64,000 nt of DNA from the NCBI GenBank assembly GCA_946415315.1, contig CAMKRZ010000009.1, positions 1 through 64,000 of the forward strand, read 5' to 3'. The stretch is from an uncultured Lachnoclostridium sp. GTDB lineage: Bacteria > Bacillota > Clostridia > Lachnospirales > Lachnospiraceae. A program made the translations under genes and the position numbers. The notes below the pieces were generated by a model. It was not told where the DNA came from, did no database searches, and saw nothing but the letters and a program-made list of their open reading frames with translations. Numbering within the stretch: the stretch's first letter is position 1; each line of letters begins with the position of its first letter. This document shows positions 4,532 through 64,000 of the stretch, piece after piece.

Positions 4532-4819
4532 TCAGTCAACTACCAGTGCAATGATATCGCTCTGCTTCACGACGATGTACTCGTCCTCGCCGAGTTTGAC
4601 ATTCGTTCCGGCATATTTCGAGTAGATGACCTGGTCACCTTCCTTCACCTGCATGGTCACTTCCTTGCCGTCGACAATTCCGCCCGGTCCAACCGCCACA
4701 ACGATGGCCTCCTGCGGCTTCTCCTGCGATGCCGTGGTCAGGATGATTCCGGATTTCGTAGTCTCCTCCGCGGCCTTCTGCTTCAATACAACCCGATCAC
4801 TCAACGGTACCAGTTTCAT
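4532..4819 (-). CDS. groS: Co-chaperonin GroES
   Basis: A 95-residue co-chaperonin beginning MKLVPLSDRVVLKQ, with a mobile loop around TKSGIILTTASQEKP and the ending YIVVKQSDIIALV. It caps the GroEL ring. It is the first gene of the groESL operon. Confidence 0.99.
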   Translation of the reverse strand: MKLVPLSDRVVLKQKAAEETTKSGIILTTASQEKPQEAIVVAVGPGGIVDGKEVTMQVKEGDQVIYSKYAGTNVKLGEDEYIVVKQSDIIALVVD

Positions 4820-4929
4820 GTAAAAGCCCTCTTTCTTTCATAAAAATAGTCACAGCCCGTCGCGCCCGATTCCCGGCCCATGGTTCCCTGCCGGCCCGTC
4901 GCGGCACAACACCCTCTGACGACGCTACT

Positions 4930-4958
4930 GTTATAGCACAACTTGTTAGCACTGTCAA
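4930..4958 (-). promoter_or_regulatory. groESL promoter
   Basis: TTGACA and TATAAC at 17-base spacing on the minus strand. The -35 hexamer lies inside the CIRCE element, so HrcA binding would block polymerase. Confidence 0.85.
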
Positions 4959-4972
4959 GCGTTGAGTGCTAA
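4946..4972. promoter_or_regulatory. CIRCE operator (HrcA binding site)
   Basis: TTAGCACTG-N9-GAGTGCTAA, one mismatch from the consensus TTAGCACTC-N9-GAGTGCTAA. This is the heat-shock operator of Firmicutes; hrcA itself is not in the window. Confidence 0.95.
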
Positions 4973-5003
4973 TTTCTTGTGAATACACGGAAAATTCACC
5001 TTC

Positions 5004-7592: not shown

Positions 7593-8219
7593 TCACGGTT
7601 TCCACTGATACCGCGACAGATCGACGACTCCGTCTGTTACTTCTATTCCTTCTGCCATCAGAAGTTTTGCCTGCTGCCCGGCACCGCCGAATGCAAACTC
7701 ACCGGCAAGCTGTCCCTTCGAGTTGACAACCCGGTAGCACGGGATTCCCTCCGGATCCGGGTTCCTGTGAAGGGCATTTCCGACCGCCCTGGCCATTTTC
7801 CGATCGCCCGCAACCTCCGCGACCTGCGCGTAGGTTGCCACGCAACCGTACGGGATCTTCCGGACGGCCTCGTAGATCCGCTTGGAAGGATTGTCGGAGA
7901 TCAGGTCATAACTCTCCGCGATCATCATTTTCACATCCTTGTCCGGAATGCTTCCGTCGAGGATCACCGTGTTCCAGTGATCCTTGTTCTGATGGTATCC
8001 CGGAACCACCGACCGGTAGATCCTCCGCCAGAATAAAGCCTTCTCAGGGTCAACCTTGACATTCAGGCAGATGCATCCGTCCTTCTCATAGGTCCACAGA
8101 AACGCCTTTCGGTTTCCTTTGTATCGCACCAGCTGCCAGTTCGTATCGTGAAACGGCGCATCCTGGTACGTGTCCGCAAAGGAAAGACCGTATGCGATTG
8201 CTTCTTCCCGTGTTTTCAT
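7593..8219 (-). CDS. YjbR/MmcQ domain fused to O6-alkylguanine transferase-like domain
   Basis: A 208-residue fusion. Residues ~1-105 resemble the MmcQ/YjbR fold (WTYEKDGCICLNVKVDPEKA, HWNTVILDG). Residues ~112-208 match the DNA-binding domain of methylguanine methyltransferases and alkyltransferase-like proteins (IPYGCVATYAQVAEVAG, MARAVGNALHRNP, IPCYRVVN). The active-site Cys (C161) is kept, but the usual PCHRV reads PCYRV. ATL proteins have Trp at the Cys position, so this could still be a working methyltransferase; repair of O6-alkylguanine or lesion recognition is inferred. Confidence 0.88.
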   Translation of the reverse strand: MKTREEAIAYGLSFADTYQDAPFHDTNWQLVRYKGNRKAFLWTYEKDGCICLNVKVDPEKALFWRRIYRSVVPGYHQNKDHWNTVILDGSIPDKDVKMMIAESYDLISDNPSKRIYEAVRKIPYGCVATYAQVAEVAGDRKMARAVGNALHRNPDPEGIPCYRVVNSKGQLAGEFAFGGAGQQAKLLMAEGIEVTDGVVDLSRYQWKP

Positions 8220-8267
8220 ATCTTTCTCCGTTCCGCAATGTCACGATGCCATTATACGATATTTTAC

Positions 8268-8296
8268 TTGAAAACACACCTTTTCAATGCTACAAT
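8268..8296 (+). promoter_or_regulatory. Predicted promoter of the YegP-like gene
   Basis: TTGAAA and TACAAT at 17-base spacing, 64 bases before the start codon. Confidence 0.75.
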
Positions 8297-8359
8297 TACG
8301 GGTGAATATTCATACGAAGGGGGCGACGGCCTCTTTCGAATACAAAGGAGGTATTTCCC

Positions 8360-8728
8360 ATGGGCAAATTTGTTATCAAGACGACGAAGACCGGTGTCAA
8401 GTTCGACCTCAAGGCTACGAACGGCCAGGTTATTGTCACAAGTGAGGTTTACACAACGCTTGCAAACTGCAAGAAGGGTATCGCCAGCGTACAGAAGAAC
8501 GCTCCGATCGCCGCTATCGAGGATCAGACTGTCGAGGGTTACAAGGCAGAGAAGAATCCGAAGTTCGAGATCTACACCGACAAGTCCGGTGAGTTCCGCT
8601 TCCGCCTGAAGGCTACGAACGGTCAGATCATCGGTGTGAGTGAAGGCTACACCACGAAGCCCAACTGCGAGAAGGGCGTTGCCAGCGTACAGAAGAACGC
8701 CGCTGACGCAACGATCGAGGTTGAGTAA
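8360..8728 (+). CDS. YegP-like protein (two DUF1508 repeats)
   Basis: A 122-residue soluble protein made of two copies of the DUF1508/YegP motif: KFVIKTTKTGVKFDLKATNG ending NCKKGIASVQKNA, and KFEIYTDKSGEFRFRLKATN ending NCEKGVASVQKNA. YegP proteins are small beta-alpha dimers of unknown function. An AAAGGAGG site precedes the ATG. It is a single-gene unit with its own promoter and a strong terminator. Confidence 0.95.
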   Translation: MGKFVIKTTKTGVKFDLKATNGQVIVTSEVYTTLANCKKGIASVQKNAPIAAIEDQTVEGYKAEKNPKFEIYTDKSGEFRFRLKATNGQIIGVSEGYTTKPNCEKGVASVQKNAADATIEVE

Positions 8729-8804
8729 TCTCCGTTTCGGATGAACGCTGATTCATCCTCCCGGGGTCTGTCACAACAGACGCCCGAATGATAAGGGTTT
8801 TCCG

Positions 8805-8839
8805 CCGGCAGGCGCCATGTGGCGCTTGCCGGTTTTTTT
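8805..8839 (+). terminator. Intrinsic terminator after the YegP-like gene
   Basis: A 13-base stem (CCGGCAGGCGCCA / TGGCGCTTGCCGG, one G-T pair) with a 2-base loop region and a 7-T run. Confidence 0.9.
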
Positions 8840-8857
8840 GTTGGGATTCCCTGTCTC

Positions 8858-11572
8858 TCACTCTGTCATCATTTTCCCTTTGTGCTTCTTATCCCGCAGC
8901 CGCGGCACGATGATCAGAAGCGCCAGTCCGATAAGCCCGACAAGGCTGAGCACCATGCCGGCGATTCGCCCCGGTGCATGGTAAACCATCTCAAACGTAT
9001 GCTCCCCCGCTGCGATCTCACAGCCGAGGAAACCGTCATCCACTCGGAAAATGGGCGTTTCCTTCCCGTCGACGCGAACCGTCCATGCCTCATCGTACGG
9101 GATGCTCGTAACGAGCACACCCGCCGCGTCCGGAGCGATCCGCCCCGTGATCCGGTTGTTGCGCGGGTTCTCCAGTTCCGAAGCCATCGTCATATTGTTC
9201 CGTGCCGCCTTCACGTCGGAAAGCTTCACCCGCTGAATGCGGGGCGGCGAGATCACCACATCCTCGCCCTTGAAACGGAAGCGCAGCTCCCTGTTCGGTT
9301 CCGAGGAGGAGACCACGAATTTCATGTTGAAATTTTCGTTCGGGCGCGAATTGTTCCGCCCGGAAAGAATGCCGGTGATCCCGTTGACATCGATGATCGT
9401 GCGGTGAAAATGCCGCTCCGCGACCGTCGTTGTCACAACGTAAACGTACTCATCCAGAAAGTCCGGGATCGGCACTGTGTATTCCTGTTCCACGCTGTCC
9501 GACGCTACGCGGATGTTTCCGTTCGCGTCCTTCTCGCGGCCGAAATCAACGGTGATCCCTGTGTCCTCCAACGGAGAGCGATACACATCCGGACCGTCCT
9601 CCTCCGTAACCGCGTAGAAAAGAAGCGCTATCTCGCGGTCCGCCGGGGAGAGCGACCGGAACTCCCGAAGGCTCATTCGTTGTTTCGCCGCGAACACCGT
9701 CGTGTAGGCGTCGGGGTTGGTGTAAACGCGAACCTTCCCGTCGGCCGAACCATCGACCGGCGTGTATCCGGCAGGCGCATCCGTCTCCGTCACGACGTAG
9801 CGCACGCCCATCAGCGTCTGCAGGAAAATGTCGTTCTGCGGCGTGAAGGAGATATCGTTGACCGTCGGATTGGCCGCGCCGAGATCCCCGTACATCAGTT
9901 TCAGGTATGACATGTTGCTGAGGGAGGAGTACATGCCGGTTGACAGGTACCGCTTGCCGCGCAGCCGGTTGACACCGTATTTGACCTCGACGAAATCCGC
10001 GCTTCGGTACACGCCGTCATCCCGGGAAAGCACCTCCTCGATCACGCGCTCACGCTCCGCATCATAAAGTTTCTCCGCATATTCGCGGGTAACCGGCTTT
10101 TCCTGGTTATGCGAATACACCAGTGAGATCACCATCGCCAGCACAAACACGGGGATTGTCAGCGGCAGAAGATTTCTCTTCCGCACAGCTACATGGGTCA
10201 GCGCGATCGTGCCCGCTGCGTCCGCCGCAAACAAGGCAATCAGTTTATACTCGCCGCAGAACAGATAGCCGATCATGCCGAGGACAGCGCCCGCTGCCGC
10301 GATCACCGTAAAACGCCGAAGCGGGATTTTCCCGGTGCGGAGCTGCTGCAGCATCACTCCGACCAGATACGCGGCGATCGGAATGAACGGGATCAGAATT
10401 TTCTCCCTCGCGTAGAGAAAACCGTTGAGCAGATAACGAACCCACGGCAGCCACGCGCAGGCGAGCACGCCGATCGCAAGCACGGCCTCCGCGGAACCGC
10501 CTGACGATGCAGACACGCGATCTGCTACGGGCACACGGTCCGCTGCCGCAGAGATTTCCGTCACCGAAGGCGCACGATCCCCGGCTGCAGACTCATTTTC
10601 CGAAAGACCGGCCTGACGCTTCTTCCTCTTCGGTACAGCCATCACGCACAGCGCCAGGTAGGCGATCGCTGTCATTCCCATGGAATACCCGCTGTAGCAG
10701 ATCGCTCCGGCGAAATCCATGTCGCCGAGCAACATGTGCTCGATCTCCATTTTCGGCCTTGTGCCGGGCTCGCGGCCGGAGAAGATCACCATCAGCGAAG
10801 GAATGGTCAGGATCGATGCGATGACGACTCCCGTGAGCATGCACAGCGCAAAGCGCCATGCCGACTGCAGAAACTTCCGGAACGTAAACTCCTTCATGCA
10901 GGAAATACACCGGTAGATTCCGTACAGCGTCACGACGCAGACTCCGGGAACCGCATAGAAATAGCTTGTGAAAAACAGCAGAGCGACGCTCACCGCAAGA
11001 AGGCCCCGGCGGCGGCGCGCAAAGAACCGGTCGACACCGATCAGCGCAAGCAGCAGAAACGGCATGTAATCGACAAACATCACCTGCCGGTGCGAGTGAA
11101 ACAGAAGCGGCGTCGCAAACGAAAACAGAGCCGTCGCAGCGTAAACCGCGCCGTCGGAGCTGACTGCGGAACGACCGAACGCGATCGTGATATGACGGAT
11201 CCACAGGAAAAACAGCCACACCGAGGCGATCAGCATCACCACGGACGCAAACTGCAGATAGGTGACCATGGAAATCCCGGGGAACGGATAGCTCCCCAGA
11301 TAGACCGGGTTCAGAAACCCGTAGTATCCGAAATAGTAAGCATTCTGCCCGCCTCCGAGCTGGAACGCGAACTCCGGAAACAATTCTCCGGTTTCGTAAA
11401 ATGTCTGCCGGTAGTACTCCGGCAACACGCTGTGCTGACTCACCCAGTCGATGATGGAGCCGTACAGCTTCGTCGTGCCGGTCATCGCGTAGATCGCGAT
11501 GAGCAGCAGCACCGTGATGACTCCCAGCACCGCATAATCCCGCTTTCGCAGAGAACGAAAAGTTTCCCGCAT
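8858..11572 (-). CDS. YfhO-like multispanning membrane protein
   Basis: About 904 residues with a dozen or more predicted membrane helices in the first ~530 residues and a large extracytoplasmic C-terminal domain, ending with a helix and KHKGKMMTE. The first loop (GSIIDWVSQHSVLPEYYRQ, GGGQNAYYFGYYG, NPVYLGSYPF) and the C-terminal YDEAWTVRVDGKETP...GCEIAAGEHTFEMVYH match the YfhO family, GT-C-type proteins implicated in glycosylating lipoteichoic acid in Firmicutes. The donor and acceptor are unknown here. I chose the ATG at 11572, preceded by GGGAGA, over an upstream one at 11647. It is divergent from the PIG-L gene. Confidence 0.88.
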   Translation of the reverse strand: MRETFRSLRKRDYAVLGVITVLLLIAIYAMTGTTKLYGSIIDWVSQHSVLPEYYRQTFYETGELFPEFAFQLGGGQNAYYFGYYGFLNPVYLGSYPFPGISMVTYLQFASVVMLIASVWLFFLWIRHITIAFGRSAVSSDGAVYAATALFSFATPLLFHSHRQVMFVDYMPFLLLALIGVDRFFARRRRGLLAVSVALLFFTSYFYAVPGVCVVTLYGIYRCISCMKEFTFRKFLQSAWRFALCMLTGVVIASILTIPSLMVIFSGREPGTRPKMEIEHMLLGDMDFAGAICYSGYSMGMTAIAYLALCVMAVPKRKKRQAGLSENESAAGDRAPSVTEISAAADRVPVADRVSASSGGSAEAVLAIGVLACAWLPWVRYLLNGFLYAREKILIPFIPIAAYLVGVMLQQLRTGKIPLRRFTVIAAAGAVLGMIGYLFCGEYKLIALFAADAAGTIALTHVAVRKRNLLPLTIPVFVLAMVISLVYSHNQEKPVTREYAEKLYDAERERVIEEVLSRDDGVYRSADFVEVKYGVNRLRGKRYLSTGMYSSLSNMSYLKLMYGDLGAANPTVNDISFTPQNDIFLQTLMGVRYVVTETDAPAGYTPVDGSADGKVRVYTNPDAYTTVFAAKQRMSLREFRSLSPADREIALLFYAVTEEDGPDVYRSPLEDTGITVDFGREKDANGNIRVASDSVEQEYTVPIPDFLDEYVYVVTTTVAERHFHRTIIDVNGITGILSGRNNSRPNENFNMKFVVSSSEPNRELRFRFKGEDVVISPPRIQRVKLSDVKAARNNMTMASELENPRNNRITGRIAPDAAGVLVTSIPYDEAWTVRVDGKETPIFRVDDGFLGCEIAAGEHTFEMVYHAPGRIAGMVLSLVGLIGLALLIIVPRLRDKKHKGKMMTE

Positions 11573-50359: not shown

Positions 50360-51880
50360 TCAGCCCGGAGAACTCTCGTATGCCGGCACGTATGCCGTGA
50401 ACGAGTCCGGGAAGCAGTCCCGAAGCGTCATTTGTCGGCAGCACTCCTCCGGTTTCCGGTACTCTTTCAGCATAGTTCTCCACCCGGGGTACTGTTCACG
50501 GTACATTCTGTACCGATAATCCTCCGCATAATCCCACAGTTCTCCCGGAATATGACACCGGACTTCCTCCTCCCCTTCGATCAGCCGGCAGGGATTGTAC
50601 AGGATGCGCATATTTTTCGCATACTCCTCAAGGAATTCGTAGACATCCTTGCGCGGAAGCTTGTTGTGCTTTGCGTAGACCTGCGTGATCTCCCAGTCCT
50701 CGACTTCCATCGTGACAAAAGGAACCTTCGGCTTCTCTTTCTTTCTCACGAACAGGATCGTCGTGTTGCTGCTTGCGTGAGCGTCCGTGTATTCCATCAC
50801 GCAGTTTCCCTGCGCAAGCGCTTCCTTACAGACATCCATGACGGAGCCCGGCATGATCACCTCGTATTTCTCACCGCTGTATTCGTACCAGCCAAGCCTT
50901 TTTCGGAGCTCAAACCGCGAATTCGCATAGCTGTTTTCCGCGGTTTCACGCTCCCTGACTCTATTCAGTTTCTCCACGACATCGCAGACATCGTCCGGCC
51001 TGGGGAGCTTCATTTTCCGGATCTCCGGAATCTCATCCCGCAGCAGCAGAAATTCCCCGTACGCATTGAGATAGAACCCACTCTGCTCCCCCGCGAGTCT
51101 GCGGTACAACGACCGGCTGAAACTGTGCCCCGCAAACTTCCCGCCGTTTTTGCAAAGTTCCGCCAGGTAGCACCACTGCCCGCCGGACGGGATCTCCCGA
51201 TCAAAGTACCCGCTGTACTCCTGATAGGTTTTCCGGCAAAGCGCGAGGCTTTCCGCATCCACGAAAAAGCCGAACAGCTCCGGACGATTCAGGATCTTGA
51301 GCAGCCGAAGCGGGACATTGTCGCCGACGATCATTTCCGGGCTCGTTCCGATCAGGTTGTAGGTAGGGATCTCATCCAGGTGTTCCGCGATGATATTCAG
51401 CCCCGCCTTGTACATGATCTCCCTGGCGCCGCACCGGTGGCTCGCGTAATAGGCGTGCTTCAAAGCCTCATCGAGGCGGTCGCTCTCATACGGAAGATAG
51501 TTCCACTCCGGGAAGAGCCGACCGATCTCCTCGTTCAGTCTGTCCATTTGCCGCTCGCTGATGCCAAAGCAACTGCCCTCAAGATGGTCCCGCAGACTCT
51601 CCTCCGCCGCCTCAGGGAGGCAGTATCCCTCACAGATGACGTATCGCCTGTAACTGTCCGGATAAAACATCGGGTCCCACACATATACTTCCAGGTACCC
51701 CTCCCCGCATTCCGCCCCGTGAACAAACGGAAAAACATACGTCTTCGCGGGGTCCCTGCAAAATTCATCCGCCATGCCGAGGAACTCCTCCTGCGACACC
51801 GGCGGGTATTTCGTAAAATCACGGCAATCGACCTCGGGGCACGGGAAGATCGCCCGTTCAAGATCTCTGTTAAGTAGCAT
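50360..51880 (-). CDS. PcfJ-like domain protein
   Basis: About 506 residues. The C-terminal third matches the PcfJ pattern: YEVIMPGSVMDVCKEALAQG, NCVMEYTDAHASSNTTILFV, then VTMEVEDWEITQVYAKHNK. The N-terminal two thirds are helical and unrecognised. PcfJ is named from a conjugative plasmid, yet here there are no mobility genes nearby. ATG 51880 is 8 bases after AAAGG; an ATG at 51886 is too close to the site. The gap to the next gene (51881-52080) holds one GC-rich hairpin (CTGCCC / GGGCAG near 51928) and no clear promoter. Confidence 0.75.
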   Translation of the reverse strand: MLLNRDLERAIFPCPEVDCRDFTKYPPVSQEEFLGMADEFCRDPAKTYVFPFVHGAECGEGYLEVYVWDPMFYPDSYRRYVICEGYCLPEAAEESLRDHLEGSCFGISERQMDRLNEEIGRLFPEWNYLPYESDRLDEALKHAYYASHRCGAREIMYKAGLNIIAEHLDEIPTYNLIGTSPEMIVGDNVPLRLLKILNRPELFGFFVDAESLALCRKTYQEYSGYFDREIPSGGQWCYLAELCKNGGKFAGHSFSRSLYRRLAGEQSGFYLNAYGEFLLLRDEIPEIRKMKLPRPDDVCDVVEKLNRVRERETAENSYANSRFELRKRLGWYEYSGEKYEVIMPGSVMDVCKEALAQGNCVMEYTDAHASSNTTILFVRKKEKPKVPFVTMEVEDWEITQVYAKHNKLPRKDVYEFLEEYAKNMRILYNPCRLIEGEEEVRCHIPGELWDYAEDYRYRMYREQYPGWRTMLKEYRKPEECCRQMTLRDCFPDSFTAYVPAYESSPG

Positions 51881-52080
51881 GATCATTGCCTTTCTGTCAC
51901 AAAAATACAGGGATGCGAACAAATCCCTGCCCCTGCGGGGGCAGAAGGATGTGCGCATCCCCGAAATATCAATTCTCGAGTATGCACAAGAACACTTCGT
52001 TGTGCGGAAAATGCCGGGGCCAAATAGTTCCCGTCACCGCGACACAGGGAAGGTGTTCTCGTGGTTTGTCACGACCGGGA

Positions 52081-52552: not shown

Positions 52553-53362
52553 TCAGCCGTTCTTCCTCTTGTTCACGATCGCGTCGATGCACTCGATGCA
52601 CGCAGACCGGAAGCCCGCCTTCTCGAGCGCTGCGACACCGCAGATCGTAGTTCCGTTCGGCGAGCACACCGCATCCTTGAGCACGCCGGGATGCTCCCCC
52701 GTCACCTGCTGCAGCTTCGCGCTGCCGAGCACAGTCTGCGAGATCAGCTTGTACGCCGTCGCGCGGGGAAGACCATATTTGACGCCTGCATCCGCAAATG
52801 CCTCCATGAACAGGTCAACGAACGCCGGACCGCATCCGCTGATGTATCCGCCGATCCCCATCAGTTCCGTGGGAAGCGAAATAACCACGCCCAGGCCCTC
52901 GAAGAGACTCTTCATCTCCGCGAGCTCCGTCGCCTTGAGCGAATTCTTCTCCTCGAAGAGAAACACGCCCTCACCGACCATCGCCGGCGTGTTCGGCATC
53001 ACGCACTGGATCCGGACGGAATCGTCGATGCCGACGATACCGGCCAGTTGCTTCTCAAACGTCTCGCACGTCCAGCCTGCCGCGATGGACCAGAGAGCCT
53101 TGCCAAACAGATTGTTCCCGATCTCCGTGAGAACGCTTGCAATCTGGTACGGCTTGCATGCGATCACGATTGCGTCAGCCTCCGCGACCACCGCCTTCGC
53201 ACTCGCCATCGGAACAAATCCGATTCGCGCCGCGTTCTTCGCAAGTTTCTCCTGGTTCGGGGCATACGCATACATGTCGCTGCCCGCGACAAGCCCTTTC
53301 TTTACCCAGCCTTCCGCGATGGCCTGCGCCATATTACCCATTCCGATAAAACCGATTTTCAT
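52553..53362 (-). CDS. proC: Pyrroline-5-carboxylate reductase
   Basis: 269 residues, standard length. NAD(P)-binding MKIGFIGMGNMAQAIAEGWV, then IVIACKPYQIASVL, VMPNTPAMVGEGV and the C-terminal signature GSAKLQQVTGEHPGVLKDAV. Catalyses the last step of proline synthesis. Single gene with no proA/proB beside it. Confidence 0.97.
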   Translation of the reverse strand: MKIGFIGMGNMAQAIAEGWVKKGLVAGSDMYAYAPNQEKLAKNAARIGFVPMASAKAVVAEADAIVIACKPYQIASVLTEIGNNLFGKALWSIAAGWTCETFEKQLAGIVGIDDSVRIQCVMPNTPAMVGEGVFLFEEKNSLKATELAEMKSLFEGLGVVISLPTELMGIGGYISGCGPAFVDLFMEAFADAGVKYGLPRATAYKLISQTVLGSAKLQQVTGEHPGVLKDAVCSPNGTTICGVAALEKAGFRSACIECIDAIVNKRKNG

Positions 53363-53431: not shown

Positions 53432-56281
53432 TTACTTGAACACATCCTTATACATCGCAAAGGTGCGGTCATCCGCGCTGACAAAGATTACCTTGATGCC
53501 GTACTCGGGATGTCTGCGCATCCAGCCCTGCACCGTCCGGCTCGCGACACGCGTTGCCTCGCGGAGAGGATATCCGTAGTAGCCCGTCGAGATCGGCGGG
53601 AACGCGATGGAGTGGATATCGTACTTCATCGCCAGGTTCAGGCAGTTCTCGTAGCACATGGTCAGGTAGACCGGATCCGTCTCGTCGCCGGAATAGCGCG
53701 GGCCGACCGTATGAATGACAAACTGTGCCTTCAGGCGATATCCGCCGGAAATCTTCGCGCGTCCCACATCGCAGCCCTTGAGTGCCGCGCACTCGCGCAA
53801 CAGCTCGGGACCTGCCGCCTTCATGATGGAATTGTCGATCCCGTTTCCGCCCATCAGCGTCGTGTTGGTCGCATTGACTACACAATCGCAATCAACAGTG
53901 GCGATATTGCCGTGCTTGATGACGATCTCGCTTCGGATCTCGTCGCGATACGTAAGCGGTCTCTGCTGGACAGGCTCCGCACGAGGAATAAACTGCGTCT
54001 TCGGTGCCGGAGGCTCCGGAAAATCCTCTTCCTCTTCCTCGTCAGCATCCTCGTCTTCTTCGTCCTCGTCCTCGTCTTCCTCTTCGTCCTCGTCCTCATC
54101 GTCAGACTCTTCGAACTCTTCGTCCTCATCCTCCGATTCGTCTTCGTCGGACTCGTCATATTCATCGTCGGGCTCGGTTTCTTCCTGCTCGGTTTCCGCG
54201 TCCTCCGCATTTTCCGTTGTTTCGGAAAATTCTCCGTTCGACGAAGCTTCTGCCGTCTCCTCGGCTGCTGTCTGTGCAGCCTCCTCGGTCTCAGCCGCTT
54301 CATCGACAGCCTCCTTGGCAGGCTCTTCCGGCACCACAGGTTTCACAAACTCCGTGTACCACGGTTTCTTCTCCGGCTCGGCCTTCTGCTCAGGCTGCTC
54401 CGTCTCCGCGGACTCCTTCGCCGGTTCTGTTTCCTCGACCGGTGTGGTCTCCTCTGCCGTGGCAACTTCCTTCACCGGCTCGGCCTCTACTGCCGGCGCG
54501 GTCTCCTCTGCCGTGGCAACTTCCTCCACCGGTTCGGCTTTCGCAACCGTCGCAATCTCCTCTGCCGTGGCAACTTCCTTCACCGCCTCGGTTTCCGCAA
54601 CCGATGCGGTCTCCGTAACGGTCTCTTCCGCCGGTTCGCTTTCTGCTGCCGGCGTGAACTCCGTTGCCGCCGCGGGCTCTTCCGCCGCTGTTTCCTCTAC
54701 GGTTTCCGCTTCCTCCGCCGCTTTTCCGTCGGCAGCTTCCACCGTGTACTCGAGCGTCTCCGGTTCCACCTTCGCCGGTTCTGCAACCGTGTACGAAGGT
54801 TCCTCCTCTTCCGTCTCGAGCTCGACCACAACCTCATCCGGCATGGTGCCGGTCACAATCTCATACGGCACGCTCTCGACCACGATTTCCTCGGGAGCCT
54901 GCTCTTCCACGGTCTCGTCCGCGCTCTTCGGCTCGGGCTTCCCGGACGATGCTTCCCCGTCGGACTCCTGCGTCTCGTCCTCCATGTCGCGGATCACGCT
55001 CCACATGTCGCCCGCGCGCATTCCCTCGGAAAAACCTGCCCCGAACAGCGTCGTGGCTTCCTCGCCTTCCTCCGGCACATACTCCTGCACGTCGCCGGAC
55101 GGACTGCTGCTTGAAACGACAACATACGTATCCGGGGAAGACGTCCGTCCCGGATCCTGCGTGCCGACAAGCCGATTGCGGTTGTCCCTGCGCGCAACAT
55201 CCACGATGATGTGCGTTTCCTCGTACTGTTCCTGCGCAGCAGTTCCCTCGGAAGCAGCTTCGCCCGGAAGTTCCGTATCGGCCGCGGGGATCGTCTCGCT
55301 CGAGGCGTCCGCCGCGCTCTCAACCTGCGCGAGCAGCGAGGCCGGATTGCGAAGGCCGCCGCGGTAGCGCATGAGATCGAAAATATCCTGTTTCATCTCG
55401 AAGAAGCCCGCGATGGGCAGCCCGGCGCTCTGTCCGCTCCGGAACATCCACTCGAGTTCCTCAAAGGTGTAGTTTGCCACGCTGAGATCTTCGTACGAGC
55501 GACTGCGGCGAAGGTTGAAGAAAACCTCCTCCATCCATGTCGCAGTGATCTCGGAGAGGTACGGAAGCATGCACGCTTCGTAAATGGGCATGTTCCAGAC
55601 GGTGGATTCCGACGAATCTTCATTTTCCGAAGATGTCTCGTTCACGGCTTCGCTTGTGCCGGCGGCTTCCTCAAGCTCGCGGCGGATGCGCTCCGCCTTG
55701 TCGGAATCATTGCGCCGCGAAACGCGGATCGGCTGCGGCGCGCGGAGATCGACGGCATCGACATACTGCGTCACCGAAGCACCCGCGACCGAGCACCAGG
55801 AGCGCAGATCCTCGCGCACACGCATGAGCGTGCGTCCGAGCTGATTGCGACCCTTCCACTCTTTCGGTTCGCCGCTTCGCGCATCCTCGATGTCCAGACC
55901 GATGCCCCAGACGAGATCTCTCGGCGCGCACTCCGCAAGCAGCGTGCTTCCCGTGCCGAGCAGGTTGTACAGAAGCTCCGGGTTCTGCTGGAATTTGGCG
56001 CGGATGCCGCGGCGCATGATCTGCACGCGGATTGTCTTCCACAACACGTCGTTGTAGTGCGCTACGCTGCGGCCGAGCTTCTTGATCTCCGGAAGGTCCG
56101 TCGATGCCATGATCTTGTCCGCAATTTCCAGGTCCCCAAAGGTCAGTGCCTTCTGGAACATCATGTACTGTTCCACCGAATGATACGTGCGCCCCGCGTA
56201 CGTAAAATCCGAAATATACCAGTTGCTGAGATACCCGTACTCCCCGTCCGGATCGTAAAACCGGATGACCCTTTTTTCCAT
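53432..56281 (-). CDS. NADAR domain - long acidic linker - macrodomain fusion
   Basis: About 949 residues. Residues 1-~150 are a NADAR/YbiA-like domain: GYLSNWYISDFTYAGRTYHS, VEQYMMFQKALTFGDLEIA, GTGSTLLAECA, WGIGLDIEDARS, GRNQLGRTLM. Residues ~230-310 form an unrecognised helical segment. Residues ~330-760 are low complexity, first E/V/A/T repeats (VATAEET) then an almost pure D/E run. Residues ~775-949 are a macrodomain: GNIATVDCDCVVNATNTTLM, GGNGIDNSIMKAAG, FPPISTGYYGYP. NADAR enzymes remove ADP-ribose from guanine bases and macrodomains bind or hydrolyse ADP-ribose links, so ADP-ribosylation reversal is inferred. ATG 56281 follows AAGGAGG. Confidence 0.92.
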   Translation of the reverse strand: MEKRVIRFYDPDGEYGYLSNWYISDFTYAGRTYHSVEQYMMFQKALTFGDLEIADKIMASTDLPEIKKLGRSVAHYNDVLWKTIRVQIMRRGIRAKFQQNPELLYNLLGTGSTLLAECAPRDLVWGIGLDIEDARSGEPKEWKGRNQLGRTLMRVREDLRSWCSVAGASVTQYVDAVDLRAPQPIRVSRRNDSDKAERIRRELEEAAGTSEAVNETSSENEDSSESTVWNMPIYEACMLPYLSEITATWMEEVFFNLRRSRSYEDLSVANYTFEELEWMFRSGQSAGLPIAGFFEMKQDIFDLMRYRGGLRNPASLLAQVESAADASSETIPAADTELPGEAASEGTAAQEQYEETHIIVDVARRDNRNRLVGTQDPGRTSSPDTYVVVSSSSPSGDVQEYVPEEGEEATTLFGAGFSEGMRAGDMWSVIRDMEDETQESDGEASSGKPEPKSADETVEEQAPEEIVVESVPYEIVTGTMPDEVVVELETEEEEPSYTVAEPAKVEPETLEYTVEAADGKAAEEAETVEETAAEEPAAATEFTPAAESEPAEETVTETASVAETEAVKEVATAEEIATVAKAEPVEEVATAEETAPAVEAEPVKEVATAEETTPVEETEPAKESAETEQPEQKAEPEKKPWYTEFVKPVVPEEPAKEAVDEAAETEEAAQTAAEETAEASSNGEFSETTENAEDAETEQEETEPDDEYDESDEDESEDEDEEFEESDDEDEDEEEDEDEDEEDEDADEEEEEDFPEPPAPKTQFIPRAEPVQQRPLTYRDEIRSEIVIKHGNIATVDCDCVVNATNTTLMGGNGIDNSIMKAAGPELLRECAALKGCDVGRAKISGGYRLKAQFVIHTVGPRYSGDETDPVYLTMCYENCLNLAMKYDIHSIAFPPISTGYYGYPLREATRVASRTVQGWMRRHPEYGIKVIFVSADDRTFAMYKDVFK

Positions 56282-56382: not shown

Positions 56383-56411
56383 ATTGTACCGCACGACGGG
56401 GTACTTCGCAA
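56383..56411 (-). promoter_or_regulatory. Predicted promoter of the NADAR-macro gene
   Basis: TTGCGA and TACAAT at 17-base spacing on the minus strand, ~100 bases before the start. Confidence 0.75.
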
Positions 56412-56413
56412 GT

Positions 56414-56443
56414 AAAAAAACGGCATCACCTGCGTGACGCCGT
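56414..56443 (-). terminator. Terminator of the membrane protein gene at 56485
   Basis: ACGGCGTCAC / GTGATGCCGT stem with a run of seven T on the minus strand. It isolates the NADAR-macro gene as its own transcript. Confidence 0.9.
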
Positions 56444-56484
56444 TGAACTGTCGTGTTATATTACGTTCCGATCCGGTATTTCCC

Positions 56485-57204
56485 TCAGGCGACCTTCTCC
56501 GAACACGCAAGTATCGCCTTTTCCGCCTTGTCGTAATACACGCTCTTGAAGATCGCTTCCAGAAATCCGAGCGTCAGTACGATCGATATCCACGGGAAGA
56601 AGATCGCAAAGAGCAGAGCCGCAATCTGAATCCCGACGGCAATATACCCGCTTTTCGCGGAAAATTTAGTCCCGTTTTCCGTGCACAGCGCACGGATGTG
56701 CCGGTCAAGAACGATCACGGCAAAGAGCCGGAAAACGCTCGCAAACCAAAAGAGCTGCACAAGGACAATCCAGATCTGTGAATCTGCATACGTAGCCACA
56801 CACACAGCGAACGTGATCAGTCTGGCTGCAAGATCCGCCATCATAAAATAACTCATCCTGCGAAAAACATCCGCGCTTTTCGCTGCAGTCCTCAACACTG
56901 CATATTCCGCAAAGCAGAACAAAAATGCCAGAATCCCGGCTGCACCGATCACAAACAGGAATACAAATGCCCTCGCAGCACCTACAAGCATAACTGCGAT
57001 AATCTCCTCGCCTTCCACTTCGATCGACCAGTTGAGCATTCCGTCCCAGACACTGCATTTGCTGAAATCCGCAGTGAAATAATTATCGACTACGTTAATC
57101 CAGAGAAAAATCATAAAAATGCCCCACACTAAAACCTGGATCTTCTTCGTCTTCTTCAAACTGCCGAGTGTTTTGCAATAAACCTCATGCTCTTCCAAAC
57201 TCAT
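56485..57204 (-). CDS. Integral membrane protein of unknown family
   Basis: 239 residues with about five to six helices (IQVLVWGIFMIFLWINVV, IIAVMLVGAARAFVFLFVIG, LITFAVCVATYA, IWIVLVQLFWFASVFRLFAV, IQIAALLFAIFFPWISIVLT). Cytoplasmic ends are charged. No recognised motif. It follows the acyl-ACP thioesterase gene by 21 bases and is cotranscribed with it; GGGGAGGGGG precedes the ATG. Confidence 0.75.
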   Translation of the reverse strand: MSLEEHEVYCKTLGSLKKTKKIQVLVWGIFMIFLWINVVDNYFTADFSKCSVWDGMLNWSIEVEGEEIIAVMLVGAARAFVFLFVIGAAGILAFLFCFAEYAVLRTAAKSADVFRRMSYFMMADLAARLITFAVCVATYADSQIWIVLVQLFWFASVFRLFAVIVLDRHIRALCTENGTKFSAKSGYIAVGIQIAALLFAIFFPWISIVLTLGFLEAIFKSVYYDKAEKAILACSEKVA

Positions 57205-57225: not shown

Positions 57226-57930
57226 TCATGACAATTCCACCACGCAGGCCGGTTCATCGGTGTTGAGCGATATCACGGTCCGCGCTTCATCCACACACAC
57301 CTGTGGCGTGATCGTATCGCCCGGGCGCGCCTGCTTCTTGTACTCCACGCGAAGTTCCGTAATCTCCGCGTCCCTCGGAGCATAGCTCATCGCCAGATGT
57401 ACGAACTGCCCGTTGTTCACATGCCCGTTGTTGTCAAGCATGTATTCCTGTACCGGAACGGGATCATGTGCTGTTCCGCCCTCCGGCACCGCGATCTTGC
57501 GCCCCTTTGCTTCAAACAGCGGCCCGTCGCCGAGCTCGTAGCGTGCCAGGATATCCTCCGGGATCTTCGTCATGCGCATATTGGCCATGTCCATCAACGC
57601 CCACTTCGCATCCGCCTCCGCCAGCACTTCGCCTTCCGGTGTCTTCATGTAAACGGCACGGTTTCCGAGCATTCCGCGGAACTGATACGGATACGTTCCC
57701 ACGATGATGCGCTCCTCCAGCTCGGGGAGCCTTCGGATCCTCACATCCCACGAGATCAGGAACCACGCGAGCGAACGCGCCTTGAGCACCTTCGTCCCGA
57801 CGCCGAGCGACTCGCTCTGTTCGATCGCGGCATCCTGAAAATAATCGATCAGCGCGGGGATCGAGAGCTTCAGCTCTCCGTCCACCCTGCTGTACCGAAT
57901 TGTATCGCAGTACTCAAAAACAGCCCCCAT
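57226..57930 (-). CDS. Acyl-ACP thioesterase
   Basis: 234 residues with two hot-dog folds. IRYSRVDGELKLSIPALIDY, then QDAAIEQSESLG, AWFLISWDVRIRRLPELEE, and the catalytic-side DNNGHVNNGQFVHLA (Asn/His) match FatA-type bacterial thioesterases. Releases fatty acids from acyl carrier protein. First of a two-gene unit, next to an acyl-CoA ligase gene with its own terminator between. Confidence 0.93.
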   Translation of the reverse strand: MGAVFEYCDTIRYSRVDGELKLSIPALIDYFQDAAIEQSESLGVGTKVLKARSLAWFLISWDVRIRRLPELEERIIVGTYPYQFRGMLGNRAVYMKTPEGEVLAEADAKWALMDMANMRMTKIPEDILARYELGDGPLFEAKGRKIAVPEGGTAHDPVPVQEYMLDNNGHVNNGQFVHLAMSYAPRDAEITELRVEYKKQARPGDTITPQVCVDEARTVISLNTDEPACVVELS

Positions 57931-58077: not shown

Positions 58078-59760
58078 TTATTTCCGCGCGTCCCCGACGC
58101 TCTTCAGTTCGTCCTCGTGGCGGATCTGCGCGCGCTTGATCTTGCCCCCTAACGTCTTCGGCAGCTCGTCGACAAACTCGACGATACGCGGGTACTTGTA
58201 CGGAGCGGTCATCTTCTTCACGTGGTTCTGAAGCTCCTTGATGAGCTCGTCGGACGGCGTGTAGCCCTTCGCGAGCACGACGGTCGCCTTGACCACCTGG
58301 CCGCGGATCGGGTCCGGAGCCGCGGTGATCGCGCACTCTACGACTGCCGGATGCGCAACGAGCGCGCTCTCGACCTCGAACGGTCCGATGCGGTAACCGG
58401 AGCATTTGATAACGTCGTCGTGACGGCCGACGAAGCGGCAGTAACCGTTGTTGTCGCGCCATGCAACGTCCTTGAGGTTGTAATTGCCGCCGGCAAATGC
58501 CTCGTCCGTCTGCTCTTTGTTCTTATAGTATCCGATGAACAATCCGATCGGATGGTTGTCGATGACGTCGCAGATCGTGATCTCGCCCTCGGCGCCGACC
58601 TCAACCTCCTGCCCGTCCATCATCAGCTTGATATCGTAGATCGGCGAAGGCTTGCCCATCGCGCCCGGGATCGGCTCAAACCACGGAAAATCAGCGAACA
58701 GTACCGTGCCCTCGGTCTGCCCGAAGCCGGTGTGGATCTTGCCGCCCGTGAGCGCCAGCCAGCGGTCGTACACGTCCGCGTTCAAAGGCTCGCCCGCCGT
58801 CGCAAAATTCTGAATGCTCGAGAGGTCGTAGCTCGCCACATCCTCCTGGAGCATGAAACGATACATCGTCGGCGGCGCGCAGAACGTCGTCAGCTTGTAC
58901 TTCGCCATCATTTCCAGAAGCTTCGCAGGCTTGAACTTGATCATATCGTACGCGAAGATCGTCGCTCCGCAGATCCACTGGCCGTAGATCTTGCCCCAGC
59001 CGAACTTCGCCCAGCCGGAGTCGGAGACGCTCATGTGGAGCTTGCCCTCCTGCACCTGCTGCCAGTACTTCGCGGTCACAATGTGTCCGAGCGGATGGTG
59101 ATAATTGTGCGTTACCATCTTCGGCATACCCGTCGTCCCCGACGTAAAATAAATCTGCATGATGTCGGTGCCCTTCGTGCGGTCATCGCCCGTCGGGCGC
59201 TCCAGCACGTCGGAGCACTTCTCCATCTCCGCGTTGAAATCGATCCAACCCTCTCGCTGAACGTTGTCAACAACCGCAAGGTATTGTACGCCCGGCATCT
59301 CCGGCTTCGCCATCTCCATCTGGGACATGACATACTCGTCATCGACGCATACGAACATTTTCACATCGGCCGCGTTGGCGCGGTACACGATGTCCTTCTT
59401 CGTGAGCTGCAGCGTTCCCGGGATAATGATGATCCCGAGTTTGATCAGCGCCGTCGCGCAAACCCAGTACTCCCAGCGTCTGCGAAGGATCAGCATCACG
59501 ACATCGCCGCGCTTCAGTCCGAGAGATGTGAAGAAGTTTGCTGCCTTGTTCGACAGTCTGCTCATCTCCGCGAACGTGAACGACTTCTCAAGTCCCGTGT
59601 CGTCACACCACAAAAGCGCTCTGAGGTCGGGCTTTTCCTCGGCCCATCCATCCACGATGTCCCAGCCGAAGTTGAAGTACTCCGGCGCATTTACCTTGTA
59701 ATTCTTCTTGAAATCCTCGTACGAATCAAACTCGATGCGAGGAAGATACCGCTCTAACAT
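58078..59760 (-). CDS. AMP-forming acyl-CoA synthetase (medium-chain/acetyl-CoA ligase-like)
   Basis: 560 residues of the ANL superfamily. The AMP-binding P-loop is IYFTSGTTGMPKMV, the adenine motif includes GFGQTEGTVL, the hinge region is DVAWRDNNGYCRFVGRHDDV, and the C-terminal catalytic Lys lies in KTLGGKIKRAQIR. Overall layout (YFNFGWDIVDGWA at the start) resembles ACSM-type medium-chain ligases. It would activate a carboxylic acid with ATP and CoA. It lies 70 bases after the XRE-cupin regulator gene, a common pairing. Confidence 0.93.
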   Translation of the reverse strand: MLERYLPRIEFDSYEDFKKNYKVNAPEYFNFGWDIVDGWAEEKPDLRALLWCDDTGLEKSFTFAEMSRLSNKAANFFTSLGLKRGDVVMLILRRRWEYWVCATALIKLGIIIIPGTLQLTKKDIVYRANAADVKMFVCVDDEYVMSQMEMAKPEMPGVQYLAVVDNVQREGWIDFNAEMEKCSDVLERPTGDDRTKGTDIMQIYFTSGTTGMPKMVTHNYHHPLGHIVTAKYWQQVQEGKLHMSVSDSGWAKFGWGKIYGQWICGATIFAYDMIKFKPAKLLEMMAKYKLTTFCAPPTMYRFMLQEDVASYDLSSIQNFATAGEPLNADVYDRWLALTGGKIHTGFGQTEGTVLFADFPWFEPIPGAMGKPSPIYDIKLMMDGQEVEVGAEGEITICDVIDNHPIGLFIGYYKNKEQTDEAFAGGNYNLKDVAWRDNNGYCRFVGRHDDVIKCSGYRIGPFEVESALVAHPAVVECAITAAPDPIRGQVVKATVVLAKGYTPSDELIKELQNHVKKMTAPYKYPRIVEFVDELPKTLGGKIKRAQIRHEDELKSVGDARK

Positions 59761-60490: not shown

Positions 60491-60520
60491 TTGCATTTTC
60501 CGACGCAATGTGCGTATAAT
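60491..60520 (+). promoter_or_regulatory. Promoter of the repeat lipoprotein gene
   Basis: TTGCAT and TATAAT at 18-base spacing. The -35 overlaps a copy of the CATTTTCCG word (60494-60502). It is back to back with the minus-strand promoter, 31 bases away. Confidence 0.75.
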
Positions 60521-60607
60521 ACACTTCGCAGGTTGTTCGGCAGGACGCCGATAAACACGCGCTGCGCGCATTGGATCGTCAATGCCGCTGTAAGGAGGAA
60601 TTACGGA

Positions 60608-62212
60608 ATGAAGCGAAAACTGAATATTATCCTTTTGTTTATTATGCTTGTTTTTGTGCTTGCCGCATGCGGCGATGAGAAGCCGGACGAGCGGGAGTCC
60701 CAGAAGAAGACCTCCCCGACTGTCACGCCCACGGAAGCTGTGGCAACACCAACCGCGGAGGCAACGCCTACCACCGAACCGACGCAGGAACCTACTCCTA
60801 CCGCCGAGCCTACGCAGGAACCTACTCCTACGGTCGAGCCGACTCAGGAGCCCACCCCTACCGTTGAGCCGACTCAGGAACCTACTCCTACCGTTGAGCC
60901 GACTCAGGAACCTACTCCTACCGTTGAGCCGACTCAGGAACCCACTCCTACCATTGAACCGACTCAGGAGCCTACGCCTACGGCTGAACTGACTCAGGAG
61001 CCCACTCCTACGGTTGAGCCGACGCCGGCAGCCACCGCAACACCGACTCCGACCGAGGCGCCGAAGCTTCCCGCTGTGGCCGCAACCGCCGGCCCCGCGT
61101 ATGTGATCGGTGAGACGACCTGGTACTACTATCTGATGGATGATTCCGATCCGAACCAGGGCATCCACCTGAACCTGGTTTACATCGCGGACCCCGGCTA
61201 CGAAGCACTTGCGCGCTCCGTACAGGGAATGACCAACTATACCACCACGGATGTGTACCTGTCTTACACGGCCAGCGCGAGCGGAACGTCGGGCAAGGAG
61301 GAAAGCGAGATCCTGCGACATTTTCTGAAGAGCGATCTGGAGATCGGCCGCGCGGACTCCCTGGTGTTCAGCACCGCAACACGGTTCAACGGTTACACGA
61401 CCTCTACGGGAACCCTCGAATACGTCTACACGTACAACTACGACACCAAGACCGGCGAAATGCTTTCGCTGGATCAGATGGTGACGGATCTCGATGCTCT
61501 GTACAATGCCATCACGGAGGTTGCGGACAAAGAGTTCCGGGAGCAGGGAGTTATCAAAGACGACTCCTGGAAAGAGATTTTCCGAAAGAGATTTTTCGCC
61601 GGAACAGTCAAATGGCTGGCGGTGGATGAAGGCCTGGATTTTATGCTGGATTCATTCAATTATACTTCCGTCACCCCCGGTCTGCTGACCCTGCATATCC
61701 GCGTCGTCGATTATCCCGACCTCTTCAAGCCCGAGTGGGTCGGCGCCTACGACGGTTCCCTCAAGCGGACGTTCGACTTCTCCTCCTTCGGAACAAAGAC
61801 CTACAAGGCCATTGTCCCCGATCTGGTCAAAGGTATCCGGACTCTGACCTGGGACGAGATTGCCGATATGTTGACGAAAGCCGGCGTTACCTACGAAGGA
61901 ATGAATGCGAAGGAGGCGGCAAAATACGAGCAGGACGCGGAGCTGATATTCTTCGATCCTGACGACGGAAAATCCTACCGCCTGGCGTTCTGGCCTTTTG
62001 ACAAGGATCCCGTCGACCGGCTGGAGGGCATCTACTTCCGATTCGGTGTAAACGTCTACATTGACAATGCATACGGTACCCGGACCGAACCTCGCTATAT
62101 CATGGTCGATCCCTGGCTCCAGGATGACTTTGAACAGGTGTTCGCCGTGAGCTTCGCAAGCGAAGAGGAGCTGCGCGCTGCCGTGTACGGCGCGATCGAT
62201 AACTACCGTTAA
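60608..62212 (+). CDS. Lipoprotein with decapeptide repeats and RsiV-like domain
   Basis: 534 residues: lipobox FVLAACGDE, a linker with eight PTQEPTPT-type decapeptides (~56-135), then an extracytoplasmic domain. YTYNYDTKTGEMLSLDQMV and LYNAITEVADKEFREQG resemble the DUF3298-like segment of the three lipoproteins at 27-34.6 kb, so it is a distant relative. The repeat linker would hold the domain away from the membrane through the cell wall. AGGAGG precedes ATG 60608. The next gene starts 14 bases after its stop. Confidence 0.82.
   Translation: MKRKLNIILLFIMLVFVLAACGDEKPDERESQKKTSPTVTPTEAVATPTAEATPTTEPTQEPTPTAEPTQEPTPTVEPTQEPTPTVEPTQEPTPTVEPTQEPTPTVEPTQEPTPTIEPTQEPTPTAELTQEPTPTVEPTPAATATPTPTEAPKLPAVAATAGPAYVIGETTWYYYLMDDSDPNQGIHLNLVYIADPGYEALARSVQGMTNYTTTDVYLSYTASASGTSGKEESEILRHFLKSDLEIGRADSLVFSTATRFNGYTTSTGTLEYVYTYNYDTKTGEMLSLDQMVTDLDALYNAITEVADKEFREQGVIKDDSWKEIFRKRFFAGTVKWLAVDEGLDFMLDSFNYTSVTPGLLTLHIRVVDYPDLFKPEWVGAYDGSLKRTFDFSSFGTKTYKAIVPDLVKGIRTLTWDEIADMLTKAGVTYEGMNAKEAAKYEQDAELIFFDPDDGKSYRLAFWPFDKDPVDRLEGIYFRFGVNVYIDNAYGTRTEPRYIMVDPWLQDDFEQVFAVSFASEEELRAAVYGAIDNYR
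60773..61012 (+). repeat. Eight tandem 30-base repeats in a lipoprotein linker
   Basis: Each unit encodes a decapeptide of the form xEPTQEPTPT. Units 3 to 6 are nearly identical in DNA and differ mainly at third positions, so the array may change length by slippage. Confidence 0.92.
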
Positions 62213-62688: not shown

Positions 62689-64000
62689 TTACAGCAGTTC
62701 CAGAAGGTGCTTCTTCGCCTCGGTAAATTCTTCCTCGGTGATCAGCTCGTTCTCGTATGCCATCTTGAGCGCTTTCAACTTCTTGGTGAATTCATCCATC
62801 GACGTATCCACCGACGTTGCCGGCGCGGGCTTCTGCTGCTTCGGAGCGGTTCTCACAACGGAAGCTCTCGCTGCCGCTCTTCTCGCGCGCTCCTCAGGGC
62901 TCATCGCCATCGTCTGCTTCTGCAGGTACTCGGGAACGATCGGTCCGTCATTCACCGGCTCCGGCTCAGCGACTTCTTCCGGCTCTTCCTCTTCAGGCTC
63001 TGCCTCAACCTCATCCTGACCGAACTCCGGTTCCTCGTATTCAGGCTCATCTGCCTCTGTACTGTCGTACTCGGCTTCTTCCGTCAGCTCGTCCTCGTCG
63101 TCCGCTTCGCTGTCGTCATCCTCAAGGTTAGCCCACCGCTCTCGCGCCGCTTCCAGCGCATCGGCGAAATCTTCTTCCGTCTCTTCCGCTGCCTCCGATA
63201 CTTCCTCAAAGATCTCTTCCGCGGTTTCCTCGAACGTCTCTTCCGCTGCTTCGGTCTCTTCCGAACCGAACTCGTCTACAGCCGCTTCCGCGGATTCCAT
63301 CGCAGCCGCAAAGGAATCGGCAATCTCTTCCTCTGCTTCCGCAGCGACATTTTCCGTGGTCTCTTCCACTTCCGCCACAGCCTCGGCAAATGTATCCACC
63401 GCAGGCTCTGCTGCTTCCTCTGCGACCTCGGCAACCGTTTCTTTCACCGGAGCTGCCGCCTCCGTCATGTGACGTGTTCTGGCTGCTTCCATCGCCGCTA
63501 AGATCGCGGTATTCGCATCCGGAATCACGATCTGTTCGGACTCATCATCCTCCTCAGCGTCAGTCGCTTCGTTCGAACTTGCAAGGGCCTCTGCCATCGC
63601 TTCCGCAAAGGAACCGGGCTCCTCTTCCTCCTCGCCTGCAACCTGCTCTGCCGCGCTCTCCGCAACCGTATCCGCTGCTGTTGCAAACTCTGTCACAAAA
63701 GGCTCAAAAGCCTTCGGGATTTCCTGCGTCACCTTCTCCGCCTCAGCAGCCATCTCAGCCGCCTTCGCTTCCTCGGCCTTCGCCTTAGCCTCGGCCTCAG
63801 CCGCGCTCGCCTTCGCTGCATCCGCGAACGAATTGCCGTGCTTCAGTGCCCACAGGATCGCCTGGTTCGCATTGGAGATTTCCGGTGCGCGCTCATAGTC
63901 CGGAAGCTCATTCTCATCCTGCTCCGGCTCTTCCGCAACAGGCTCGGGTTTGATCTCCGCAACCGGTTTCTCGATGATCGGCTCTGCCTTCTCGGGCCGC
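62689..64000 (-). CDS. Acidic Glu/Ala-rich protein with C-terminal SHOCT domain, 5' end outside the window
   Basis: The last ~436 residues are visible; the frame stays open to the right edge. The chain is rich in E, A and V with degenerate repeats (DANTAILAAMEAA, NANQAILWALKHG; SFAEAMAEALAS, SFAAAMESAEAA, DFADALEAARER) and a D/E-rich stretch. The final ~40 residues (STSMDE-like start, KKLKALKMAYENELITEEEF, then AKKHLLELL) match the SHOCT domain, a short oligomerisation or targeting module. Its acidic linker style is similar to the NADAR-macro protein. Function unknown. Confidence 0.82.
   Translation of the reverse strand, partial: RPEKAEPIIEKPVAEIKPEPVAEEPEQDENELPDYERAPEISNANQAILWALKHGNSFADAAKASAAEAEAKAKAEEAKAAEMAAEAEKVTQEIPKAFEPFVTEFATAADTVAESAAEQVAGEEEEEPGSFAEAMAEALASSNEATDAEEDDESEQIVIPDANTAILAAMEAARTRHMTEAAAPVKETVAEVAEEAAEPAVDTFAEAVAEVEETTENVAAEAEEEIADSFAAAMESAEAAVDEFGSEETEAAEETFEETAEEIFEEVSEAAEETEEDFADALEAARERWANLEDDDSEADDEDELTEEAEYDSTEADEPEYEEPEFGQDEVEAEPEEEEPEEVAEPEPVNDGPIVPEYLQKQTMAMSPEERARRAAARASVVRTAPKQQKPAPATSVDTSMDEFTKKLKALKMAYENELITEEEFTEAKKHLLELL

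Follow-up and report, generated by a model that had tools for sequence, protein, structure and literature searches.

We analyzed a 64,000-nucleotide stretch of DNA (herein the window; positions 1 to 64,000 of contig CAMKRZ010000009.1) from an uncultured Lachnoclostridium sp., in which one gene joins a NADAR domain to a macrodomain. The fusion is a real family at one syntenic locus of the genus. We propose that its product is a putative resident bifunctional ADP-ribosyl eraser, with NADAR acting on N-glycosidic and the MacroD-type domain on ester-type links, that was recruited to defence elsewhere; we consider this proposal evenly balanced. The gene, with a conserved helical C-terminal extension of NADAR (CTE) and a linker between the two domains, is laid out as follows:

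53432..56281, minus strand: NADAR-CTE-linker-Macro fusion gene, 949 residues, ATG start (open reading frame and Pfam)
55802..56260, minus strand: NADAR domain, residues 8-160 (Pfam and alignment)
55334..55795, minus strand: CTE, residues 163-316 (CTE profile and alignment)
53954..55327, minus strand: low-complexity linker, residues 319-776, with 156 Asp/Glu and 23 Lys/Arg (residue counts)
54438..54614, minus strand: 54-bp tandem repeat, 3.3 copies, within the linker
54023..54133, minus strand: near-pure Asp/Glu tract, residues 717-753
53543..53878, minus strand: MacroD-like macrodomain, residues 802-913 (Pfam)

An earlier reading of the sequence alone (herein the sequence-only reading) had placed NADAR at the N terminus and a macrodomain at the C terminus of one chain, and the profile search that it called for confirms both ends: PF08719 scores 159.5 bits (cut-off 35.1; E 1.1e-46) and PF01661 scores 130.9 bits (cut-off 22; E 2.9e-38). 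No other Pfam domain was found in the fusion at E values up to 1, and the CTE has no Pfam match. The linker of about 450 residues described in that reading stands as the low-complexity segment, but the conserved CTE that follows NADAR had been overlooked. The CTE carries a variable insert (about residues 190-228), and W229, P240, P289, G292, F293 and E295-Q298 do not vary among 18 chosen sequences; part of this set, GF[FY]EMKQ, also served as a search pattern. In NCBIfam, the riboflavin N-glycosidase model TIGR02464 is exceeded (141.2 versus 73.7 bits), a match that does not tell the substrate, and the cut-off of the NADAR family anti-phage protein NF053876 is missed (46.8 versus 240 bits). 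The top NCBIfam macro match, O-acetyl-ADP-ribose deacetylase NF001664, falls below its cut-off (158.9 versus 200 bits), as do the remaining macro equivalogs listed for the window fusion. Among solved structures, the closest are P. nicotianae NADAR bound to ADP-ribose (Protein Data Bank 8bau) and human MACROD1; the macrodomain matches MACROD1/2 best.

The search of related genomes proposed in the sequence-only reading located the same fusion at a syntenic locus. NADAR occurs in long frames in 15 of the 22 genus genomes (10 of the 13 of good quality), and a macrodomain is in frame with it at 14 of these 15 loci, the window included; at the remaining one (L065) the frame extends past the contig end. 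All 15 loci have a homologue of acyl-CoA synthetase upstream in the same orientation (Pfam-tested in the window only). Of the 14 loci outside the window, eight are recorded as from ruminant stomach and one as from horse faeces, the records of the other five giving no source in words. No fusion was seen in seven genomes. Six of them have no orthologue of the synthetase (43-51% identity at best); in the seventh, G314 (synthetase 96%), the contig ends inside the next gene, too early to show whether a fusion follows.

The residues expected for catalysis are retained in NADAR. According to the published structure-function work on P. nicotianae NADAR (PMC11543638; here and below, papers are cited from the parts of their text available to us), E43, K50 and E125 are key, and alignment to 8bau gives E37, K44 and E117 as their equivalents in the window protein. 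These three, together with W81, D122 and W125, do not vary across 23 chosen NADARs (15 from the genus, 8 from the wider family). The catalytic position of the last strand, used as the criterion for the YbiA branch, is Glu (E117), not Asp or His. For MacroD enzymes the residues described are N27, N30, D40 and Y134, with H44 as helper and G37 as the ribose-anchoring glycine (PMC5413906); the window macrodomain retains the first four as N803, N806, D816 and Y902. The loss of catalytic residues in both domains, which the sequence-only reading had named as refuting it, is not what is found: the NADAR set is intact, and the macrodomain keeps its N, N, D and Y without the helper His and G37.

The 14 genus macrodomains divide equally, with seven (the window among them) keeping most MacroD residues and seven degenerate. 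The former constitute subclade A, where N30 is replaced by T in L066, and Y134 by F in L066 and L073, as in MACROD1 in the alignment. Subclade B (L060, L061, L062, L064, L067, L068 and L069) has T/S in place of N30, I at the G35 position, K at G37 and Y/F at H44; D40 is retained, and the L068 macrodomain still matches MACROD2 best. Estimates of dN/dS, the ratio of nonsynonymous to synonymous substitution rates (Nei-Gojobori, 10 pairs; rough, with some dS above 1), indicate strong purifying selection on NADAR, on the CTE core and on the macrodomain. The CTE core gives 0.013-0.053; the macrodomain gives 0.013-0.060 within subclade A and 0.064-0.097 within subclade B. As NADAR in subclade B gives 0.018-0.038, the subclade B macrodomain is kept as a protein yet evolves faster than the adjoining NADAR.

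The CTE also occurs outside the genus. A CTE profile search of genome contigs from 84,980 species returned 45 loci. Fourteen of them are the genus fusions; the other 31 lie in Clostridia-type Bacillota and Chloroflexota. Complete outside frames encode NADAR-CTE of about 250-410 residues, or 449-578 residues with a macrodomain; the NADAR-CTE frames of L091, L096, L100 and L109 are fragmented. Six of the 31 (L092, L094, L103, L104, L111 and L116) carry the macrodomain N-terminal to NADAR-CTE, the reverse of the window order, and at L102 a Macro-HTH gene lies unfused about 2.8 kb upstream of NADAR-CTE. We also examined 35 NADAR loci from the bacterial family outside the genus, 29 of them with flanks of 1.5 kb or less; a macrodomain is present at two, L052 (same record as L103) and L003, where a NADAR without CTE adjoins a MacroD gene. 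A tree of 22 macrodomains (11 from among the 14 of the genus, 11 others) places the genus sequences in one clade (support 100/99), the four from BREX operons (described below) in another (98/93) and L103 with a different macro type (99/96); exact placement is unsure because long branches meet, as the program warned. Many close relatives keep the pairing of NADAR and macrodomain, and some distant bacteria have a similar pair with the order reversed, in some cases next to genes for defence against viruses; a genuine function of the pairing is therefore probable.

Other arrangements were seen among these relatives. Two contigs from a viral collection carry NADAR-CTE genes, one downstream of a Macro-HTH gene (L146:2223-5741) and one (L147:4406-5194) with two recombinase-like genes upstream, named from sequence by eye only. 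Other NADARs of the family are fused to enzymes of NAD type: two of L053 to ADP-ribosylglycohydrolase and nucleotidyltransferase (4698-6872) and to nucleotidyltransferase alone (9775-10929), and one at L013:1420-3012 is fused to NUDIX and an NrtR winged helix.

NADARs are reported to remove ADP-ribose from guanine in DNA and RNA; the macrodomain enzymes tested left the guanine-ADP-ribose bond untouched and can act on phosphate ends, and OiMacroD cleaves O-acetyl-ADP-ribose and protein mono-ADP-ribose (PMC5413906). Because these bond specificities differ, joining the two heads in one protein could allow both classes of bond to be cleared at the same site. In the mechanism we propose, NADAR would hydrolyse N-glycosidic ADP-ribose links, either those to guanine in DNA or RNA or those of small N-glycosides, and the macrodomain would hydrolyse or hold ester- or phosphate-linked ADP-ribose; its candidate substrates are O-acetyl-ADP-ribose (from the genome's sirtuin), protein mono-ADP-ribose and RNA or DNA phosphate ends. 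The fast-evolving, flexible linker would tether both heads, with length and flexibility mattering rather than charge. In subclade B, the degenerate macrodomain may be a binding or docking module and NADAR the working enzyme. The two-headed eraser or sensor of the sequence-only reading is supported in part: one chain carries two domains that handle ADP-ribose, and NADAR retains its catalytic residues, the activity being a prediction.

Several observations weigh against the bifunctional eraser. The window macrodomain has M820 at the helper H44 position and N813 at that of G37, and the G37V substitution in OiMacroD lowered catalytic efficiency about fourfold (PMC5413906). Eight of the 14 genus macrodomains (the seven of subclade B and L066) lack N30, and subclade B also lacks G35. 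The first CTE stretch (residues 164-190, 27 codons) gives dN/dS of 0.017-0.356 in nine pairs and is undefined in one, being less constrained or noisy. No macrodomain was detected by profile at 24 of the 31 outside NADAR-CTE loci, up to 6 kb on each side. E. coli YbiA is reported to be less active than the DarT1-linked NADAR. DarT (PF14487) was found in none of the 22 genus genomes, in a search whose control matched 1 of 14 named genomes, and no cognate transferase is linked to the fusion, not every window gene having been scanned for transferases. Finally, acyl-CoA synthetase and acyl-ACP thioesterase neighbours would suit a role in metabolism more readily than one in the repair of nucleic acids.

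The statement in the sequence-only reading that no transferase is visible holds for DarT across the 22 genus genomes, but outside the window the same genome encodes KptA and a sirtuin. KptA is present in 5 of the 22 genus genomes, all five of which carry the fusion, and the sirtuin (SIR2) in all 22. The window's genome has two further macrodomain proteins, one NUDIX-Macro (L075:7716-8975) and one Macro protein (L074:1138-2256) that the tree places with the Macro-HTH proteins. A divergent second NADAR protein occurs in 3 of the 22 genus genomes (L055:6072-7577, L059:4793-6217 and L058:5469-6908). A scan covering L055 and L059 gave a TIR-like domain after this NADAR in both, below the Pfam cut-off (E 0.0014 and 0.00026, respectively); the L058 protein is of similar length with an N-terminal NADAR. 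The NADAR-TIR pairing, if true, would be notable.

The neighbourhood of the fusion in the window comprises:

52553..53362, minus strand: proC (pyrroline-5-carboxylate reductase), downstream of the fusion (Pfam)
56383..56411, minus strand: promoter-like site, 9/12 matches (consensus scan only)
56419..56444, minus strand: terminator-like hairpin and T run, upstream of the fusion (consensus scan only)
56485-57204: extra open reading frame between thioesterase and fusion, no Pfam match
57226..57930, minus strand: acyl-ACP thioesterase, syntenic (Pfam)
58078..59760, minus strand: AMP-binding acyl-CoA synthetase, syntenic (Pfam)

Subclade A loci run from the synthetase through a thioesterase-like gene and the fusion to proC, with L065 cut before proC. 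In subclade B the gap between synthetase and fusion is 40-50 bp at six loci and about 80-130 bp at L060, and the thioesterase follows the fusion by 3-60 bp at all seven. Thioesterase identity comes from Pfam in the window and L067, and elsewhere from clustering (10 of 15 locus sets) or position. The promoter of its own that the sequence-only reading gave the gene is possible, given the hairpin and promoter-like site just upstream, although such sites are only mildly above chance in the region (promoter-like sites, 6 found versus 3.0 expected; terminators, 9 versus 6.6). A PcfJ-like gene (window 50360-51958; Pfam E 1.2e-17) lies near proC and the fusion; the PcfJ type is known from conjugative plasmids. 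A 30-bp tandem repeat encoding PTPTVEPTQE-like units (60767-61023) lies in the gene at 60491-62212.

These neighbours bring in the first alternative, a metabolite-damage enzyme in which NADAR would be a YbiA-type riboflavin-intermediate N-glycosidase and the macrodomain would clear O-acetyl- or O-acyl-ADP-ribose, with the neighbours and the sirtuin encoded elsewhere marking an acyl/NAD metabolic unit. It draws on the TIGR02464 score, on O-acetyl-ADP-ribose deacetylase as the top NCBIfam macro match (though below cut-off), and on the operon-like spacing in the seven subclade B loci. Adjacency may nevertheless persist by descent with no functional meaning, and a macrodomain as degenerate as that of subclade B speaks against a needed deacetylase. 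The joint absence of synthetase and fusion in six of seven genomes, the seventh being cut by its contig end, is in its favour, but those six may be just a separate branch. The presence of SIR2 in all 22 genomes also counts in its favour, but SIR2 is found equally in fusion-less genomes. We regard this explanation as rather unlikely.

The fusion has distant relatives in a defence context. Four of the six reverse fusions (L111, L104, L092 and L094, from three Chloroflexota genomes) are the last gene of a BREX operon, on the same strand and 2-66 bp behind brxL or brxA. At L111 the fusion is preceded by BrxA, BrxB, BrxC, an AbiLi-like gene, further open reading frames, PglX, PglZ and BrxL, the BREX genes each being matched in PADLOC; at L094 it is preceded by BrxC, PglXI, BrxHI, PglZ and BrxA. 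Among the genes tested, PglZ and BrxL were matched at L104, and PglX and BrxL at L092. The L111 genome contains a fifth Chloroflexota copy (L223), whose neighbour has no assigned identity, and the genomes of L116 and L103 gave no BrxL match. BrxL was found in none of the 22 genus genomes, where the remaining BREX genes were not searched for, and on this account the BREX link is not transferable to the window gene. In a BREX operon at L127, the interval between brxC and pglX contains two genes (7619-9500), the first of them AbiLi-like by PADLOC. At L120:2-3201, the NADAR-CTE gene comes immediately after genes for an HNH endonuclease and a DUF4268 protein, the latter matching the PADLOC candidate PDC-S11. 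The window NADAR itself matches the PADLOC candidate profile PDC-M42C (E 8.9e-57).

A wider version of the eraser, which we think unlikely, would make NADAR-CTE plus MacroD a recurring cellular two-bond ADP-ribose eraser module. At the ends of BREX operons it would undo ADP-ribosylation of host or BREX components by phage transferases, or consume ADP-ribose signals, and the genus would have fixed the inverted-order version as a resident chromosomal guardian. A little more doubtful is a dedicated immunity or counter-toxin role, in which the protein would shield nucleic acid or proteins from ADP-ribosylating toxins of phages or competitors, or degrade or sense ADP-ribose defence signals. The four reverse-order relatives that close BREX operons, the PDC-M42C match, the solo NADAR-CTE of L120 and the published role of NADAR as DarT1 or YarT antitoxin favour such a role. 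In the genus, the locus is conserved with metabolic neighbours and both BrxL and DarT were found in none of the 22 genomes; the window NADAR is far under the anti-phage cut-off, the genomes of L116 and L103 gave no BrxL match, L223 has no neighbour identified as a BREX gene, and in the commonest solo NADAR-CTE group the one neighbour scanned is a carbohydrate-binding protein. The stand-alone defence protein of the sequence-only reading is accordingly not upheld, defence context being confined to some distant reverse-order relatives.

The linker looks like a lineage habit in its acidity rather than a conserved function. The window linker has a net charge of -133 and an unbroken Asp/Glu run of 19 residues, but across 14 sequences (L065 left out, being cut by its contig end) length ranges from 138 to 461 residues and net charge from -135 to +5. 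Strongly negative linkers occur in the window, L072, L070, L063 and L071, and L065 also has an acidic tract; the linkers of L066 and L073 are of mixed charge and those of subclade B are Ala-rich. Nucleic-acid mimicry, suggested in the sequence-only reading, is unsupported because the strongly acidic linker with its Asp/Glu tract is restricted to one subclade, and we consider it very improbable that the linker is the working part and the domains its anchors. A second acidic low-complexity protein in the window (62689-63999), with a weak C-terminal SHOCT match below the Pfam cut-off, bears a similar stretch, which also speaks against that role.

Tandem NADAR and Macro domains in one chain have been reported for viruses, and the authors of that report propose that the two domains act on different bonds or on different derivatives of ADP-ribose (PMC9503650). 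Judged from the published description of the viral proteins, the fusion described here differs in being bacterial, in having the CTE, in occurring in both orders, in being kept across much of a genus and in ending some Chloroflexota BREX operons. It shares the fold, the catalytic Glu/Lys/Glu and the ADP-ribose pocket with YbiA-type NADARs (E. coli YbiA, 2b3w; P. nicotianae, 8bau), to which it adds CTE, linker and macrodomain. MacroD-type enzymes (MACROD1/2, YmdB, OiMacroD) are its best macrodomain match, with the core N, N, D and Y kept in the window protein, whereas the helper His is lost, the glycine loop is altered and half of the genus sequences are degenerate. The DarT1-NADAR and YarT-YbiA toxin-antitoxin pairs share NADAR, reported there as a guanine-ADP-ribose hydrolase, whereas the genus lacks DarT and no transferase partner was seen beside the fusion. 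A Thoeris ThsA with Macro (PMC11204291) places a macrodomain in a system using ADP-ribose-type signals, a likeness of description. In the accessible parts of the open-access literature we found no report of a bacterial NADAR-Macro fusion, of the CTE or of the BREX link; part of these findings may already be known, since DefensePredictor reports structural diversity among the NADAR proteins that it identified (PMC13092281). That NADAR and macrodomain are linked in either order suggests that some substrates or toxins encountered by cells call for both chemistries in one location, and the CTE offers a new handle on NADAR specificity.
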